Origin: Oscillospiraceae bacterium
Lineage (GTDB): Bacteria; Bacillota; Clostridia; Oscillospirales; Oscillospiraceae
Assembly: GCA_902765595.1 (NCBI GenBank)
Contig: CACXAQ010000004.1
Coordinates: 113,865 to 177,864, forward strand
Length of the DNA: 64,000 bases
Direction: 5' to 3'
Shown: piece after piece, positions 43,431-47,595 of the stretch
How positions within the stretch are numbered: position 1 is the stretch's first letter
Layout of the letters: every line of letters starts with the position of its first letter
Program-made: the position numbers and the translations under genes
The notes under the pieces: model-generated
What the model was told of the DNA's origin: nothing
Databases searched by the model: none
The model's input: only the letters and a program-made list of their open reading frames with translations

Positions 43431-44672
43431 TTATTTTGCCAGGACCTTCTTGAGCCGGGCATAGCGGGGGAGGGAATGCTCCAAGGGCAGCACAGGCTCA
43501 CCCTGGATCAGGGGCAGCACATAGTCGATAAATTCGTGCTTAAGGCCGTTGCGTTCCTCGTTGAGCCATTCCAGGGGGACTTTCTTTTCGAAGTTTGCCA
43601 CGGATTCCAGCGGCAGCAGCACCAGCTTGCAGCGGTACTTTCCGTCCACATACTCGCGCTGGAAGGCGACCATCTTGCCGGTGGTGCCGGAAACAGCCTG
43701 ACGCACCGCTTCACGGCCGGCATTGCAGGCCTCGTCGATATCCGTCTGGGAGGCCAGATGCGCGCCGCAGCGCTGCAGCAGGCTCAGCTCGATCCCGCGG
43801 ACCTTGGCGCCGGTGTGCGCTTTCACGATGCTGGCCAGAAGCGTGGCCAGACCGCCCAACTGCGCGTGACCAAAACCGTCGGTAGCGGAGGTCTTGGCCT
43901 CGGAAACGAAGCTGCCGTCGGCATAGTGGATGCCCTCGGAAACGGCGACCAGGACCTTGCCGGTGGCGGCATAGACCCGCTTTACGTCGGAAAGGAAGCG
44001 ATCCATGTCGAAGTCCACCTCAGGCAGATAGATCAGATCCGGGCCGGAGCCAAACTCGGTGGCAAGAGCGGCGCTGCCGGCGAGCCAGCCGGCGTGACGG
44101 CCCATGATCTCAACAATGGTGATCATGCCGTTATCATAAACCCGGGCGTCCTTGTTGATCTCCATGCAGGAGGTGGCGATATACTTGGCGGCGCTGGCAA
44201 AGCCGGGGCAGTGGTCGGTGCCGAAAAGATCGTTGTCGATAGTCTTGGGTACGCCCATCACGCGGCACTCATAGCCCACGGACTCCATATAGCGGCTGAT
44301 CTTGTTGCAGGTGTCCATGGAGTCGTTGCCGCCGTTATAGAAGAAATAACGCACATTGTACTTCTTGAAGATCTCCAGGATGCGCTTATAGTCGGTGTCG
44401 TCCTTTTCGGGATCGGCGATCTTATAGCGGCAGGAGCCCAGCTCGGAGGAGGGGGTGTGCAGCAGAAGCTTCAGCTCTTCCGGGTCCTCCTCGTCCATCA
44501 CATACAGCTTATCCTCCAGCACGCCCTTGATGCCGTGGGCGGCGCCATAGACCTTTGTGATCTCCTCCGCGTCCAGCGCGGCGCGGATCACACCGTAAGC
44601 GCTGGCGTTGATGACGGCGGTAGGGCCGCCGGACTGGCCAAATATGGCAGCTCCGATCAGTTTTTCACTCAT
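43431..44672 (-). CDS. pfp: PPi-type phosphofructokinase (diphosphate:fructose-6-phosphate phosphotransferase)
   Basis: A 413-aa phosphofructokinase. FGQSGGPTAVINAS is the N-terminal phosphate site, FYNGGNDSMDTCNKI the donor site, GVPKTIDNDLFGTDHCPGF the catalytic site and EIMGRHAGWL a later family motif. Two residues decide the donor. The second position of the GGDG-equivalent is Asp (GGND) and PKTIDND has Lys where ATP enzymes have Gly (PGTIDND). Both are diagnostic of PPi use. It would make the step reversible and save ATP. It is divergent from fba, the next step of glycolysis. Confidence 0.93.
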   Translation of the reverse strand: MSEKLIGAAIFGQSGGPTAVINASAYGVIRAALDAEEITKVYGAAHGIKGVLEDKLYVMDEEDPEELKLLLHTPSSELGSCRYKIADPEKDDTDYKRILEIFKKYNVRYFFYNGGNDSMDTCNKISRYMESVGYECRVMGVPKTIDNDLFGTDHCPGFASAAKYIATSCMEINKDARVYDNGMITIVEIMGRHAGWLAGSAALATEFGSGPDLIYLPEVDFDMDRFLSDVKRVYAATGKVLVAVSEGIHYADGSFVSEAKTSATDGFGHAQLGGLATLLASIVKAHTGAKVRGIELSLLQRCGAHLASQTDIDEACNAGREAVRQAVSGTTGKMVAFQREYVDGKYRCKLVLLPLESVANFEKKVPLEWLNEERNGLKHEFIDYVLPLIQGEPVLPLEHSLPRYARLKKVLAK

Positions 44673-44728: not shown

Positions 44729-44757
44729 TTGATTCTGGGCAGGTTTGAGAATATAAT
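44729..44757 (+). promoter_or_regulatory. Promoter of fba
   Basis: TTGATT (44729-44734), 17 bases, perfect TATAAT (44752-44757), 57 bases before ATG. Confidence 0.8.
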
Positions 44758-44814: not shown

Positions 44815-45783
44815 ATGGCACTGGTAACTACAAAAGAAATGTTTGCGAAAGCCTACGACGGCGGCTATGCCATCGGCGCTTTTAACGTCAACAATATGGA
44901 GATCGTCCAGGGGATCACCGAGGCGGCAGGGGAGCTGAAGAGCCCCGTCATCCTGCAGGTGTCCAAGGGCGCCCGCGCCTATGCCAACCACACCTACCTG
45001 GTGAAGCTGGTGGAGGCCGCCATCATCGAGAATCCCGATATCCCCATCGCGCTGCATCTGGACCACGGCGACACCTTCGAGCTGTGCAAGAACTGCATCG
45101 ACGGCGGCTTTACCTCCGTTATGATCGACGCTTCCTCCAAGCCCTTTGAGGAGAACATCGCCCTGACCCGCCAGGTCGTCGAGTATGCCCATGATCACGG
45201 CGTTGTGGTCGAGGCTGAGCTGGGTACCCTGGCCGGCGTGGAGGACGAGGTCAACGTGGAGCACGGCAAGGAGAGCTACACCCACCCCGAAGAGGTGGAG
45301 GAGTTCGTGTCCCGCACCGGCTGCGACTCTCTGGCCATCGCCATCGGCACCTCTCACGGCGCGTACAAGTTCAAGGCCTCTCAGTGCACCCGCAATGCCG
45401 AGGGCATTCTGGTCCCGCCTCCGCTCCGCTTCGACGTGCTGCATGAGTGCATCAAGCGTCTGCCCGGTTTCCCCATCGTTCTGCACGGCTCTTCCTCCGT
45501 CCCGCAGGAGTTCGTGAAGATGGTCAACCAGTACGGCGGCAATATGCCCGACGCCATCGGCATTCCTGAGGATCAGCTGCGCGAAGCCGCGAAGCTGGCC
45601 GTCTGCAAGATCAATATCGATTCCGATATCCGTCTGGCCATGACCGCCAACATCCGCAAGTACTTTGTCGAGCATCCCGATCACTTCGACCCGCGCCAGT
45701 ATCTCAAGCCCGCCCGCCAGGCTGTGAAGGACATGGTCGCCCACAAGATCGTCCACGTCCTCGGCTCCGACGGCAAGGCCTGA
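44815..45783 (+). CDS. fba: Class II fructose-bisphosphate aldolase
   Basis: Zinc-dependent aldolase that splits fructose 1,6-bisphosphate. The 322-aa product shows GAFNVNNMEIV, the zinc and catalytic region ALHLDHGDTFELC, EAELGTLAGVEDEVNVE and IGTSHGAYKF. IVLHGSSSVP and CKINIDSDIRLA complete the phosphate and metal sites. The codon use is strongly biased to C-ending codons, as expected for a highly expressed glycolytic gene. The ribosome site is AAGGAGAACTGAAA. The product of the divergent pfp gene is its substrate. Confidence 0.97.
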   Translation: MALVTTKEMFAKAYDGGYAIGAFNVNNMEIVQGITEAAGELKSPVILQVSKGARAYANHTYLVKLVEAAIIENPDIPIALHLDHGDTFELCKNCIDGGFTSVMIDASSKPFEENIALTRQVVEYAHDHGVVVEAELGTLAGVEDEVNVEHGKESYTHPEEVEEFVSRTGCDSLAIAIGTSHGAYKFKASQCTRNAEGILVPPPLRFDVLHECIKRLPGFPIVLHGSSSVPQEFVKMVNQYGGNMPDAIGIPEDQLREAAKLAVCKINIDSDIRLAMTANIRKYFVEHPDHFDPRQYLKPARQAVKDMVAHKIVHVLGSDGKA

Positions 45784-45848
45784 GTTTTCAACGCTCCACC
45801 CTATAATAGAGATAAGCCTTAGAAAGATAGATTCTGGAGGTGGCAAAT

Positions 45849-47501
45849 ATGAGCCAAAGACCCGAACGCGCCAGATTTGCGGTGAAACCCGCTGACAAGC
45901 CCGCCGGCTCTCTGGATATGATCCTGATCGGACGGCTTGCGCTTGCGGCCGCGCTTCTGATCGCTTCTATTTTTGTCGGCAACAAGATCGTGAAGATCAT
46001 CATGCTTGTCCTTTCGGCCCTTGCGTCCGGCTATGACCTGGGGATCAAGGCGTTCGACAGTATTCTGGACGGGGACTACTTTGCGTCTCCCGTGCTGGTG
46101 CTCTTCGTCGCGTTTGTTTCGTTCCTGATCGGCTTCGGTGCTGAGGGCGCCGCCATGCTGCTGATTTATCAGCTTGGCCTGATCGTGATCGCCTATGCGC
46201 AGAAGCTCACCCGCGGCTCCGCCTTTGCCCTCCTGAAAGGACAGGACGAGGAACTGAGCGAACGGGCAGGGGAGCTGTACAAGGAAGACGACGCGCTGAA
46301 GATGGACATGGAGCCTGCGGCTCTTCACAGCGCCAACTTCGTGCTGAAGATCGGCCTGATCCTGGCCCTGCTTTATGTGTTCCTGCTGCCGCTGCTGGGG
46401 GATTACAGCTATCGTGTGTCCATCCATCGCGGCCTGATGATCGCTCTGACGGCGATCCCCGCGTCTGTTGTGGCGGCGATGCCCTACACCGCGCTGGTCG
46501 GACTGTGCTTCGGCACGAAGCGGGGCGTCCTGTTCCGCAATGCCAAGGCCATGGAGCGTACCGCCGAGGCGAATGTGGCGGTCTTCGACAAGGCCGGCGT
46601 GTTCTCTTCCGGCGAGCCCGAGCTCCAGTCTGTGGACGCGGGCGTACTGGATGAGCGGACCTTCATGAGCTTTGTGGCTCATGCGGTGTACTATTCCGAG
46701 CAGGCCTTTGCCAAGGCGATCCCGCAGCTCAACGAGCAGGATTACAAGCTGGACGTCATCAGCGATTTCGTGGACGTGCCCGGCTGCGGCGTGGAGCTCA
46801 AGATCGGCGGATCTCCCGTGGTGCTTGCCACCAGGGCCTATCTGACGGCAAGAGGCATCCAGCTGCCCGAGACAGAGGATGACGGCGAGACTTATTATCT
46901 CACCGTTGCCGGCCGCTATGTCGGCAGCCTGAACATTTCTTCCCAGGTCAATGAGAACGCCTCCGAGCTGCTGGACAGCGTCCGGGATGCCGGCTTCCGG
47001 GAAACGATCCTGCTGACCGAAGAGGGAGCAGGGGAGAGCCGCCGCCTGGCCGAGGAGCTGGGCGTGGACGACGTTTACGCCGAGTGTGATACCGAGCGGA
47101 AGCTGCACCACCTGGAGGAGCTGAATCAGAGCAGCCGCAACCACGTGATGTTCCTGTACGCAAACGGCGTGGAGACCCACACCGCAGCCGATGTGGACGT
47201 CCGGCTGAACCGCAAGGCCAAGTATGCCGACCTGATGATCCCGGCCGATAACAGCGCCGCATTGCCTTTTGCCATTCAGATCAGCCGCAGGATGAGCCAG
47301 GTCGCCAAGGAGAACGCCATCTTCGTTTTCGCCGTGAAGGCGCTGATGGTCTTCCTGAGCATGATCGGCTACTGCAGCATCTGGTTTGTGATGTTCATGG
47401 ATGTGGCAGCCGTTCTGGCTACGCTGCTGAACGCCATTCGCGTCACCAAGGATCCTTTGATCGATCTGCGCAGAATGGCTGCGGAGGACGACCAGGACTA
47501 A
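45849..47501 (+). CDS. P-type ATPase-like pseudoenzyme (degenerate P1B fold)
   Basis: A 550-aa membrane protein aligned by motif order with heavy-metal P1B ATPases, but lacking their catalysis signatures. The phosphorylation site DKTGT(L)T reads DKAGVFSSG (D247). The SEHPLAxAI nucleotide motif reads SEQAFAKAI (283-291). TGDN is TEEG (390-393). GDGINDAPAL is ANGVETHTAA (438-447). The membrane CPC motif is replaced by AAMPYTAL (209-216). The actuator TGE(S) loop is not seen between residues 120 and 165. Remnants such as GTKRGVLFRNAKAMER, GCGVELKIGG and the final paired helices keep the fold recognisable. It starts at ATG 45849 behind GGAGG and is probably preceded only by a -10 (TATAAT, 45802-45807). 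It likely cannot pump; a scaffold or regulatory role is inference. Confidence 0.8.
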   Translation: MSQRPERARFAVKPADKPAGSLDMILIGRLALAAALLIASIFVGNKIVKIIMLVLSALASGYDLGIKAFDSILDGDYFASPVLVLFVAFVSFLIGFGAEGAAMLLIYQLGLIVIAYAQKLTRGSAFALLKGQDEELSERAGELYKEDDALKMDMEPAALHSANFVLKIGLILALLYVFLLPLLGDYSYRVSIHRGLMIALTAIPASVVAAMPYTALVGLCFGTKRGVLFRNAKAMERTAEANVAVFDKAGVFSSGEPELQSVDAGVLDERTFMSFVAHAVYYSEQAFAKAIPQLNEQDYKLDVISDFVDVPGCGVELKIGGSPVVLATRAYLTARGIQLPETEDDGETYYLTVAGRYVGSLNISSQVNENASELLDSVRDAGFRETILLTEEGAGESRRLAEELGVDDVYAECDTERKLHHLEELNQSSRNHVMFLYANGVETHTAADVDVRLNRKAKYADLMIPADNSAALPFAIQISRRMSQVAKENAIFVFAVKALMVFLSMIGYCSIWFVMFMDVAAVLATLLNAIRVTKDPLIDLRRMAAEDDQD

Positions 47502-47521
47502 GACCTTTCCAAACTGATCCG

Positions 47522-47555
47522 TCAGCGCCTCTTCCGATCGAAGAGGCGCTGATTT
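47522..47555. terminator. Terminator after the P-type ATPase-like gene
   Basis: TCAGCGCCTCTTC and GAAGAGGCGCTGA form a 13-bp stem with a 5-base loop, followed by TTTC. Confidence 0.8.
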
Positions 47556-47566
47556 CGTCCCGGGAC

Positions 47567-47595
47567 TTGACAGGCCGAGATCTCTTTACTATAAT
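47567..47595 (+). promoter_or_regulatory. Consensus promoter of the second tyrosine recombinase gene
   Basis: Perfect TTGACA (47567-47572), a 17-base spacer, perfect TATAAT (47590-47595). Confidence 0.9.

Follow-up and report, generated by a model that had tools for sequence, protein, structure and literature searches.

A gene at 45849-47501 (+) in a 64,000-nucleotide stretch of the Oscillospiraceae bacterium contig CACXAQ010000004.1 (the whole stretch is called the window) was analyzed. Its product almost certainly descends from a P1B-2 (Zn/Cd/Pb) ATPase and is conserved but non-catalytic: the membrane, P and N domains have been kept, the actuator (A) domain has been deleted and the ATP cycle is broken. 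The gene lies directly behind fba, which encodes a class II fructose-1,6-bisphosphate aldolase, and evolution has kept this pseudo-ATPase for another job, which is perhaps tied to the aldolase. P-type ATPases are a textbook example of proteins in which function requires every domain to move. With the actuator and the chemistry gone but the membrane, P and N parts conserved, this family shows what the fold is capable of without ATP.

Lost motifs and retained residues

The reading frame is free of stops over 550 codons, as a first-pass annotation of the window had stated, and a GGAGG ribosome-binding sequence precedes its ATG. The window protein matched NCBIfam TIGR01525 with 150.2 bits (E 9.1e-44) and Pfam PF00122 (E1-E2_ATPase) with 16.8 bits, under the curated cut-offs of 346.25 and 28.1, respectively; naming by similarity would yield a "heavy-metal pump". 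A family alignment of 63 rows was built from the window protein, 53 genus-level rows picked for open frames and nine more distant rows, with near-copies (e.g. L043 and L080) omitted. TIGR01525 was matched by all 63 proteins (E 1e-10 or better) and Pfam E1-E2_ATPase by 30 of them (1e-3), and their profile matched the ZntA chain 4umv of the Protein Data Bank (PDB) with E 4.4e-63. The predicted structure model of the window protein is a P-type fold with P and N domains, and not the mosaic lacking such a fold that would have spoken against the first-pass annotation. Both the N(x)7K of M5 and the DxG(x)7N of M6, used here to judge P1B-2 ancestry, were found, but Ala or Val replaces the DxG glycine in 59/59 proteins.

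An alignment of the window protein with canonical pumps from its order confirmed the reported motif losses: DKTGT reads DKAGV, SEHP reads SEQA, TGD reads TEE and the hinge GDGINDAP reads YANGVE-TH, two to three residues shorter. The A-domain loop has 67 residues, against 152-158 in the aligned canonical pumps, and holds no TGES. CPC aligns to I-P-A (203-205); the earlier assignment to "AMP" was misplaced, as that string ends in the downstream Pro 212. These features are located as follows.

45849..47501, +: fba-linked pseudo-P1B ATPase without an A domain, 550 aa (reading frame, profile matches, alignment, predicted model)
46455..46463, +: M4 site I203-P204-A205 in place of CPC (alignment, genus-level set)
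46587..46598, +: degenerate phosphorylation motif D247-K-A-G, canonical DKTG (alignment, genus-level set)
46143..46145, +: E99, equivalent of exit-path residue E202 of ZntA (ZntA alignment; acidic in 43/43)
47337..47339, +: K497, equivalent of ZntA K693, within N(x)7K (ZntA alignment, conservation)
47400..47402, +: D518, equivalent of the metal-binding D714 of ZntA (ZntA alignment, conservation)

The genus-level set consists of 60 proteins, namely the window protein and those of 59 loci fetched by a peptide pattern; L095, with a broken frame, was excluded and L087 ends at a contig edge. DKTGT, GDGxND, SEHP and CPC/CPH/CPS were found in none of the 60. The shorter string DKTG occurs in two, and TGE and TGD on their own are found somewhere in the protein in six and four, respectively. 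Judged by its sequence, the window protein cannot run the P-type cycle.

Other positions are nearly invariant in the same set. The phospho-acceptor Asp247 is kept in 60/60, Lys248 in 58, Gly250 in 60, Thr/Ser390 in 57, Lys418 in 59, Glu/Asp442 in 58 and His444 in 60, although Glu replaces Asp247 in two genus members beyond the set (L026 and L027). The motif blocks are gone, but the claim that every catalytic signature had been lost was too strong because Asp247 is retained throughout the set and Lys248, Thr/Ser390 and Lys418 in nearly all of it. Measured against the four motifs of haloacid dehalogenase (HAD) phosphatases, the residues of motifs I-III are kept at genus level and the acids of motif IV are replaced.

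The second group of retained residues lies in the membrane. Position 99 is Glu in 57/60 and Asp in the other three. Among the 59 proteins that reach the C-terminal helices, N489 and K497 are kept in 59, D518 in 58 (Glu in one) and N528 in 57. The count for Q285 is uninformative because the scan pattern demanded this residue. E99, K497 and D518 are the equivalents of ZntA E202, K693 and D714 (ungapped offsets in the ZntA alignment). According to PMC6305203, the zinc site of ZntA consists of C392, C394 and D714, E202 lies in the exit path and K693 is the partner that closes it; PMC8880997 describes K693 as a built-in counter-ion. Because these three residues match, the protein on this alignment retains the exit side of the metal path and has lost the CPC side together with the ATP machinery.

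Distribution, decay series and selection

Matches over most of the protein with at least 31% identity were found in 27 of the 37 genomes of the window's genus, its own included (60 genomes were searched; L024 is truncated at the edge of its contig). In one further genome (G003), fba and the start of the pseudo-ATPase gene stand at a contig end. In the remaining nine, several of them incomplete, this fba was not found (three hold a distant paralogue) and the phosphofructokinase gene pfk was not matched. The gene xer was also not matched in these nine, in a search without a positive control as no genome matched. A contig scan with a single peptide pattern gave 60 loci, many from ruminants, with the record titles Oscillospiraceae, Ruminococcaceae, Lachnospiraceae, Clostridiales, Eubacteriales, Eubacterium, Clostridia, Candidatus Limivicinus and uncultured bacterium. 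A single-genome oddity was rejected on the basis of these loci and the 27 genomes.

In a sample of 300 genomes of the family, the full-length type gave 21 matches in 20 genomes (E ≤2.2e-131), and the next match stood at 5.0e-104. To look for spread outside the family, the family profile was applied at E 1e-95, a cut that more diverged members would not pass; only the own genome was matched among 295 genomes of the order. At the same cut, 391 genomes of the class gave the own genome and one 709-residue frame, matched from position 134 as canonical pumps are.

A set of 43 proteins from ten genera was then compared; 42 adjoin fba and one lies at a contig end. TGE[SP], DKTGT and GDGxND are absent from all 43, so homologues of this type with DKTGT or GDGxND, which would have counted against the first-pass annotation, were found in neither set. 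Genera g74, g27 and g93 keep a loop of actuator length with an altered TGE and the other genera have the short loop; CPC is kept in the relatives from g118 and g51. A natural series is thus on offer, dead with the A domain, dead without it, and with CPC kept or lost. At the phospho-acceptor position, 32 proteins have Asp and the other 11 have Glu, Asn, Ser or Ala. Since the Asp is replaced in these 11, whatever function the lineage has in common needs no phosphorylation, which argues for the non-catalytic role proposed earlier. Position 99 is acidic in 43/43, and Lys at 497 and an acid at 518 are each found in 42/43.

On the tree, from which L140 (g43) and ten further rows were omitted, the fba-linked label required two changes, compared with a shuffled mean of 20.5. 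The free tree gave two origins of the fba-linked set, with long branches, and a single clade was not rejected (p-AU 0.552, log-likelihood higher by 0.68). Loss of the actuator may have occurred more than once. Short P1B-like proteins (513 and 584 aa) with a short actuator loop and no fba in the fetched stretch were observed in g95 (L122, L123 and L124) and g26 (L120).

That the gene is maintained and not decaying is borne out by the ratio of nonsynonymous to synonymous substitution rates (dN/dS), which is 0.042-0.106 in the eight pairs with dS <0.5. Among 100 pairs with more than 72% identity, 94 gave values of 0.013 to 0.173, with dS saturated in many. In one genome pair the pseudo-ATPase gave 0.106 and the canonical pump 0.098, and five canonical pairs ranged from 0.098 to 0.308. 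In 59 of the 60 loci the frame stays undisrupted almost as far as the C-terminus, or until the contig ends (it is broken in L095), and 25 columns are invariant among 26 sequences. Relative conservation was compared between 22 pseudo-ATPase rows (overall identity 0.33) and 26 canonical rows (0.52). It is higher in the pseudo-ATPases for the N-domain (1.16 vs 0.76) and M5-M6 (1.31 vs 1.06), and lower for M4 (1.11 vs 1.51) and the actuator remnant (0.51 vs 1.19).

The fba neighbourhood and possible roles

At all 60 loci fba is found directly upstream in the same order and strand, with a gap of -119 to 81 bp (median 35.5 bp). Beyond the window's genus the adjacency was seen in g64, g125, g118, g51, g102, g74, g27, g93 and g43, and one g51 genome carries two copies. 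In the window, the following features surround the pair.

44729..44757, +: sigma-70-like promoter match upstream of fba, 10/12 (consensus match only)
44815..45783, +: fba, class II fructose-1,6-bisphosphate aldolase, directly upstream (TIGR01859, 360.5 bits, over the cut-off)
45784..45848, +: intergenic stretch between fba and the pseudo-ATPase gene (no stable hairpin, z +0.92; TATAAT without a matched -35; GGAGG at the end)
47521..47553, +: strong hairpin 3' of the pseudo-ATPase gene, possible end of the fba-pseudo-ATPase transcript (folding of 47505-47565)

The 61-nt stretch 47505-47565 folds with a minimum free energy (MFE) of -28.7 kcal/mol (z -4.40); its T tract is weak and no terminator was called. 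A run of five T was found in 3/60 of the fba-pseudo-ATPase intergenic stretches. The two genes likely form an operon.

Our tentative preference, held with less than even confidence, is that the pseudo-ATPase acts in the membrane as a partner of the metal-dependent class II aldolase, not driven by ATP and made from one transcript with it. Class II aldolases require a divalent metal, usually zinc. In this mechanism fba and the pseudo-ATPase gene would be co-transcribed; E99, K497 and D518, the zinc exit-path remnants in M2, M5 and M6, would still serve to sense a divalent metal or to hold it, with a proton as a possible substitute; and the conserved cytosolic N-domain would bind the aldolase or another ligand. 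As a result, the location, metal loading or activity of the aldolase could track metal status at the membrane. This partner role unites the three strongest findings, namely the zinc-pump ancestry, the retained exit-path residues and the fixed fba neighbour. The first-pass annotation had proposed a scaffold, sensor or partner subunit, which was right in kind but unspecific, and it missed both the fixed fba position and the retained metal-path residues. The fixed pairing with a metal-dependent glycolytic enzyme allows a direct test of whether Oscillospiraceae of the rumen and gut connect metal handling to central metabolism.

Several points weigh against a partner role of this kind. Of the three zinc ligands of ZntA, two (the cysteines of CPC) are missing, which makes metal binding doubtful, and Lys and Asp could be kept merely as an intramembrane salt bridge. 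In L140 (g43), a fba-adjacent protein of 629 aa on a very long branch, the M5 Lys and the M6 Asp are both lost. Asp247, kept in the whole genus-level set, hints at remaining P-domain activity, and dS saturation affects many of the dN/dS pairs. The contact with the aldolase is one that we infer, and the TATAAT of the intergenic stretch makes an internal promoter between the two genes possible. By a hand tally, fba occurs without an adjacent P1B-like gene in 43 other genera; the aldolase therefore generally needs no such partner. Dead P1B proteins unlinked to fba also exist in genomes of the genus, so loss of catalysis is not tied to fba. Co-loss of fba and the pseudo-ATPase gene was dropped as specific evidence; because the nine genomes without this fba also gave no match to pfk, their joint absence is not specific.

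The foremost rival, a pure scaffold, is rather unlikely. The membrane part and the N and P domains would tether glycolytic enzymes to the membrane with no metal bound, and the Lys-Asp pair would just join M5 and M6. The fixed position behind fba, the N-domain that is relatively more conserved than in pumps and the loss of CPC all agree with it, but the acid at 99, Lys 497 and the acid at 518 are kept in 42-43 of the 43 proteins amid decay elsewhere, which seems beyond packing needs.

Residual phosphoryl chemistry is improbable. Here Asp247, Thr390 and Lys418 (HAD motifs I-III), with Glu442 and His444 in place of the GDGxND acids, would make a phosphatase or a sensor of sugar phosphates, the compounds on which the products of the neighbouring pfk and fba act. 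The genus-level counts of these five positions given above favour this chemistry; the Mg-binding Asp of GDG is lost, however, and the phospho-acceptor is replaced in 11 of the 43 relatives as well as in L026 and L027.

A regulatory subunit of another P1B protein is, by a hair, more improbable still. The own genome encodes both candidate partners, a canonical P1B-2 pump (C1) and a second dead P1B protein with nucleotide-side motifs (C16:7119-9113; L033/L225), whose relatives are L226-L237. In this second family (13 proteins, the own one included), TGES is absent and TGD and S-x-HP are kept in 13/13, the phospho-Asp is Gly or Glu in 8/13, and the M6 acid is gone in 8 of the 12 aligned (Asp in two, Glu in two). 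No shared operon was seen, though, and co-occurrence is unspecific: among 24 genus genomes, dead P1B proteins of this second kind, candidate members included, are found in 15/19 with the fba-linked protein and in 2/5 without it (G004 and G023). Some of the genomes are incomplete. These counts prove little and do not support a specific pairing of the two families.

A decaying pseudogene or assembly artefact, for which the lost motif blocks and the broken L095 would speak, is hardly credible and was rejected on account of the 59 undisrupted frames, the low dN/dS of the closest pairs, the invariant columns and the many assemblies.

As a complete history, the partner role would involve a zinc-pump lineage that lost catalysis and then the actuator domain, and became a dedicated metal-responsive membrane partner of a glycolytic class II aldolase, not driven by ATP and with the exit half of the zinc path alone kept. 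That every one of these steps holds is unlikely.

Related systems and further observations

The pseudo-ATPase has the fold, helix order, P and N domains, N(x)7K, M6 Asp and exit-path Glu in common with ZntA/CadA (P1B-2; PDB 4umv and 4umw). Unlike them, it has no actuator domain, TGE, CPC, DKTGT, SEHP, TGD or GDGxND, is encoded behind fba, and has 550 residues compared with 593-749 in the canonical pumps (CopA apart). KdpB of KdpFABC has the catalytic motifs and hydrolyses ATP, whereas the pseudo-ATPase, going by its motifs, cannot. The second dead P1B family resembles it in P1B ancestry, in the TGE, changed in 13/13, and in the frequently replaced phospho-Asp; it differs in the A-domain length (own member), in keeping S-x-HP and TGD and in having mostly lost the M6 acid.

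No description of such a family was found in open-licence PMC full text, where the nearest idea is human TMEM94/ERMA. It has a P-type-like fold argued from structures to be non-catalytic, and PMC12134183 reports no TGES and no ATPase activity found; its classification is disputed, as PMC13322241 calls it an ATPase. TMEM94/ERMA is thus like the pseudo-ATPase in its fold and presumed lack of catalysis, and unlike it in being eukaryotic, with ten helices and an A-domain-like domain that is kept.

Loss of catalysis seems common among P1B proteins of the window's genus. L240 (G023), L242 (G004) and L247 (G019) are P1B-like, with Ser or Thr at the phospho-Asp position and no TGES, CPC or GDGxND, and are candidate members of the second family.

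The survey downstream of fba covered genomes with an already listed fba position, a non-random choice, and g115, g48 and g25 were not counted because their stretches were too short. Both g52 and g57 have a canonical pump 0.7-2.3 kb downstream of fba, and the stretch fetched from one g27 genome (L163) contains a canonical pump and no fba. Genome G087, with a stated contamination of 6%, carries two fba-pseudo-ATPase pairs on separate contigs (L131 and L132).

In the window, the diphosphate-dependent phosphofructokinase gene pfk (43431-44672, -) is divergent from fba, as at 54/60 loci. Beyond the hairpin, a perfect TTGACA-17-TATAAT (47567-47595, +) stands 5' of a XerC/D-like recombinase gene.
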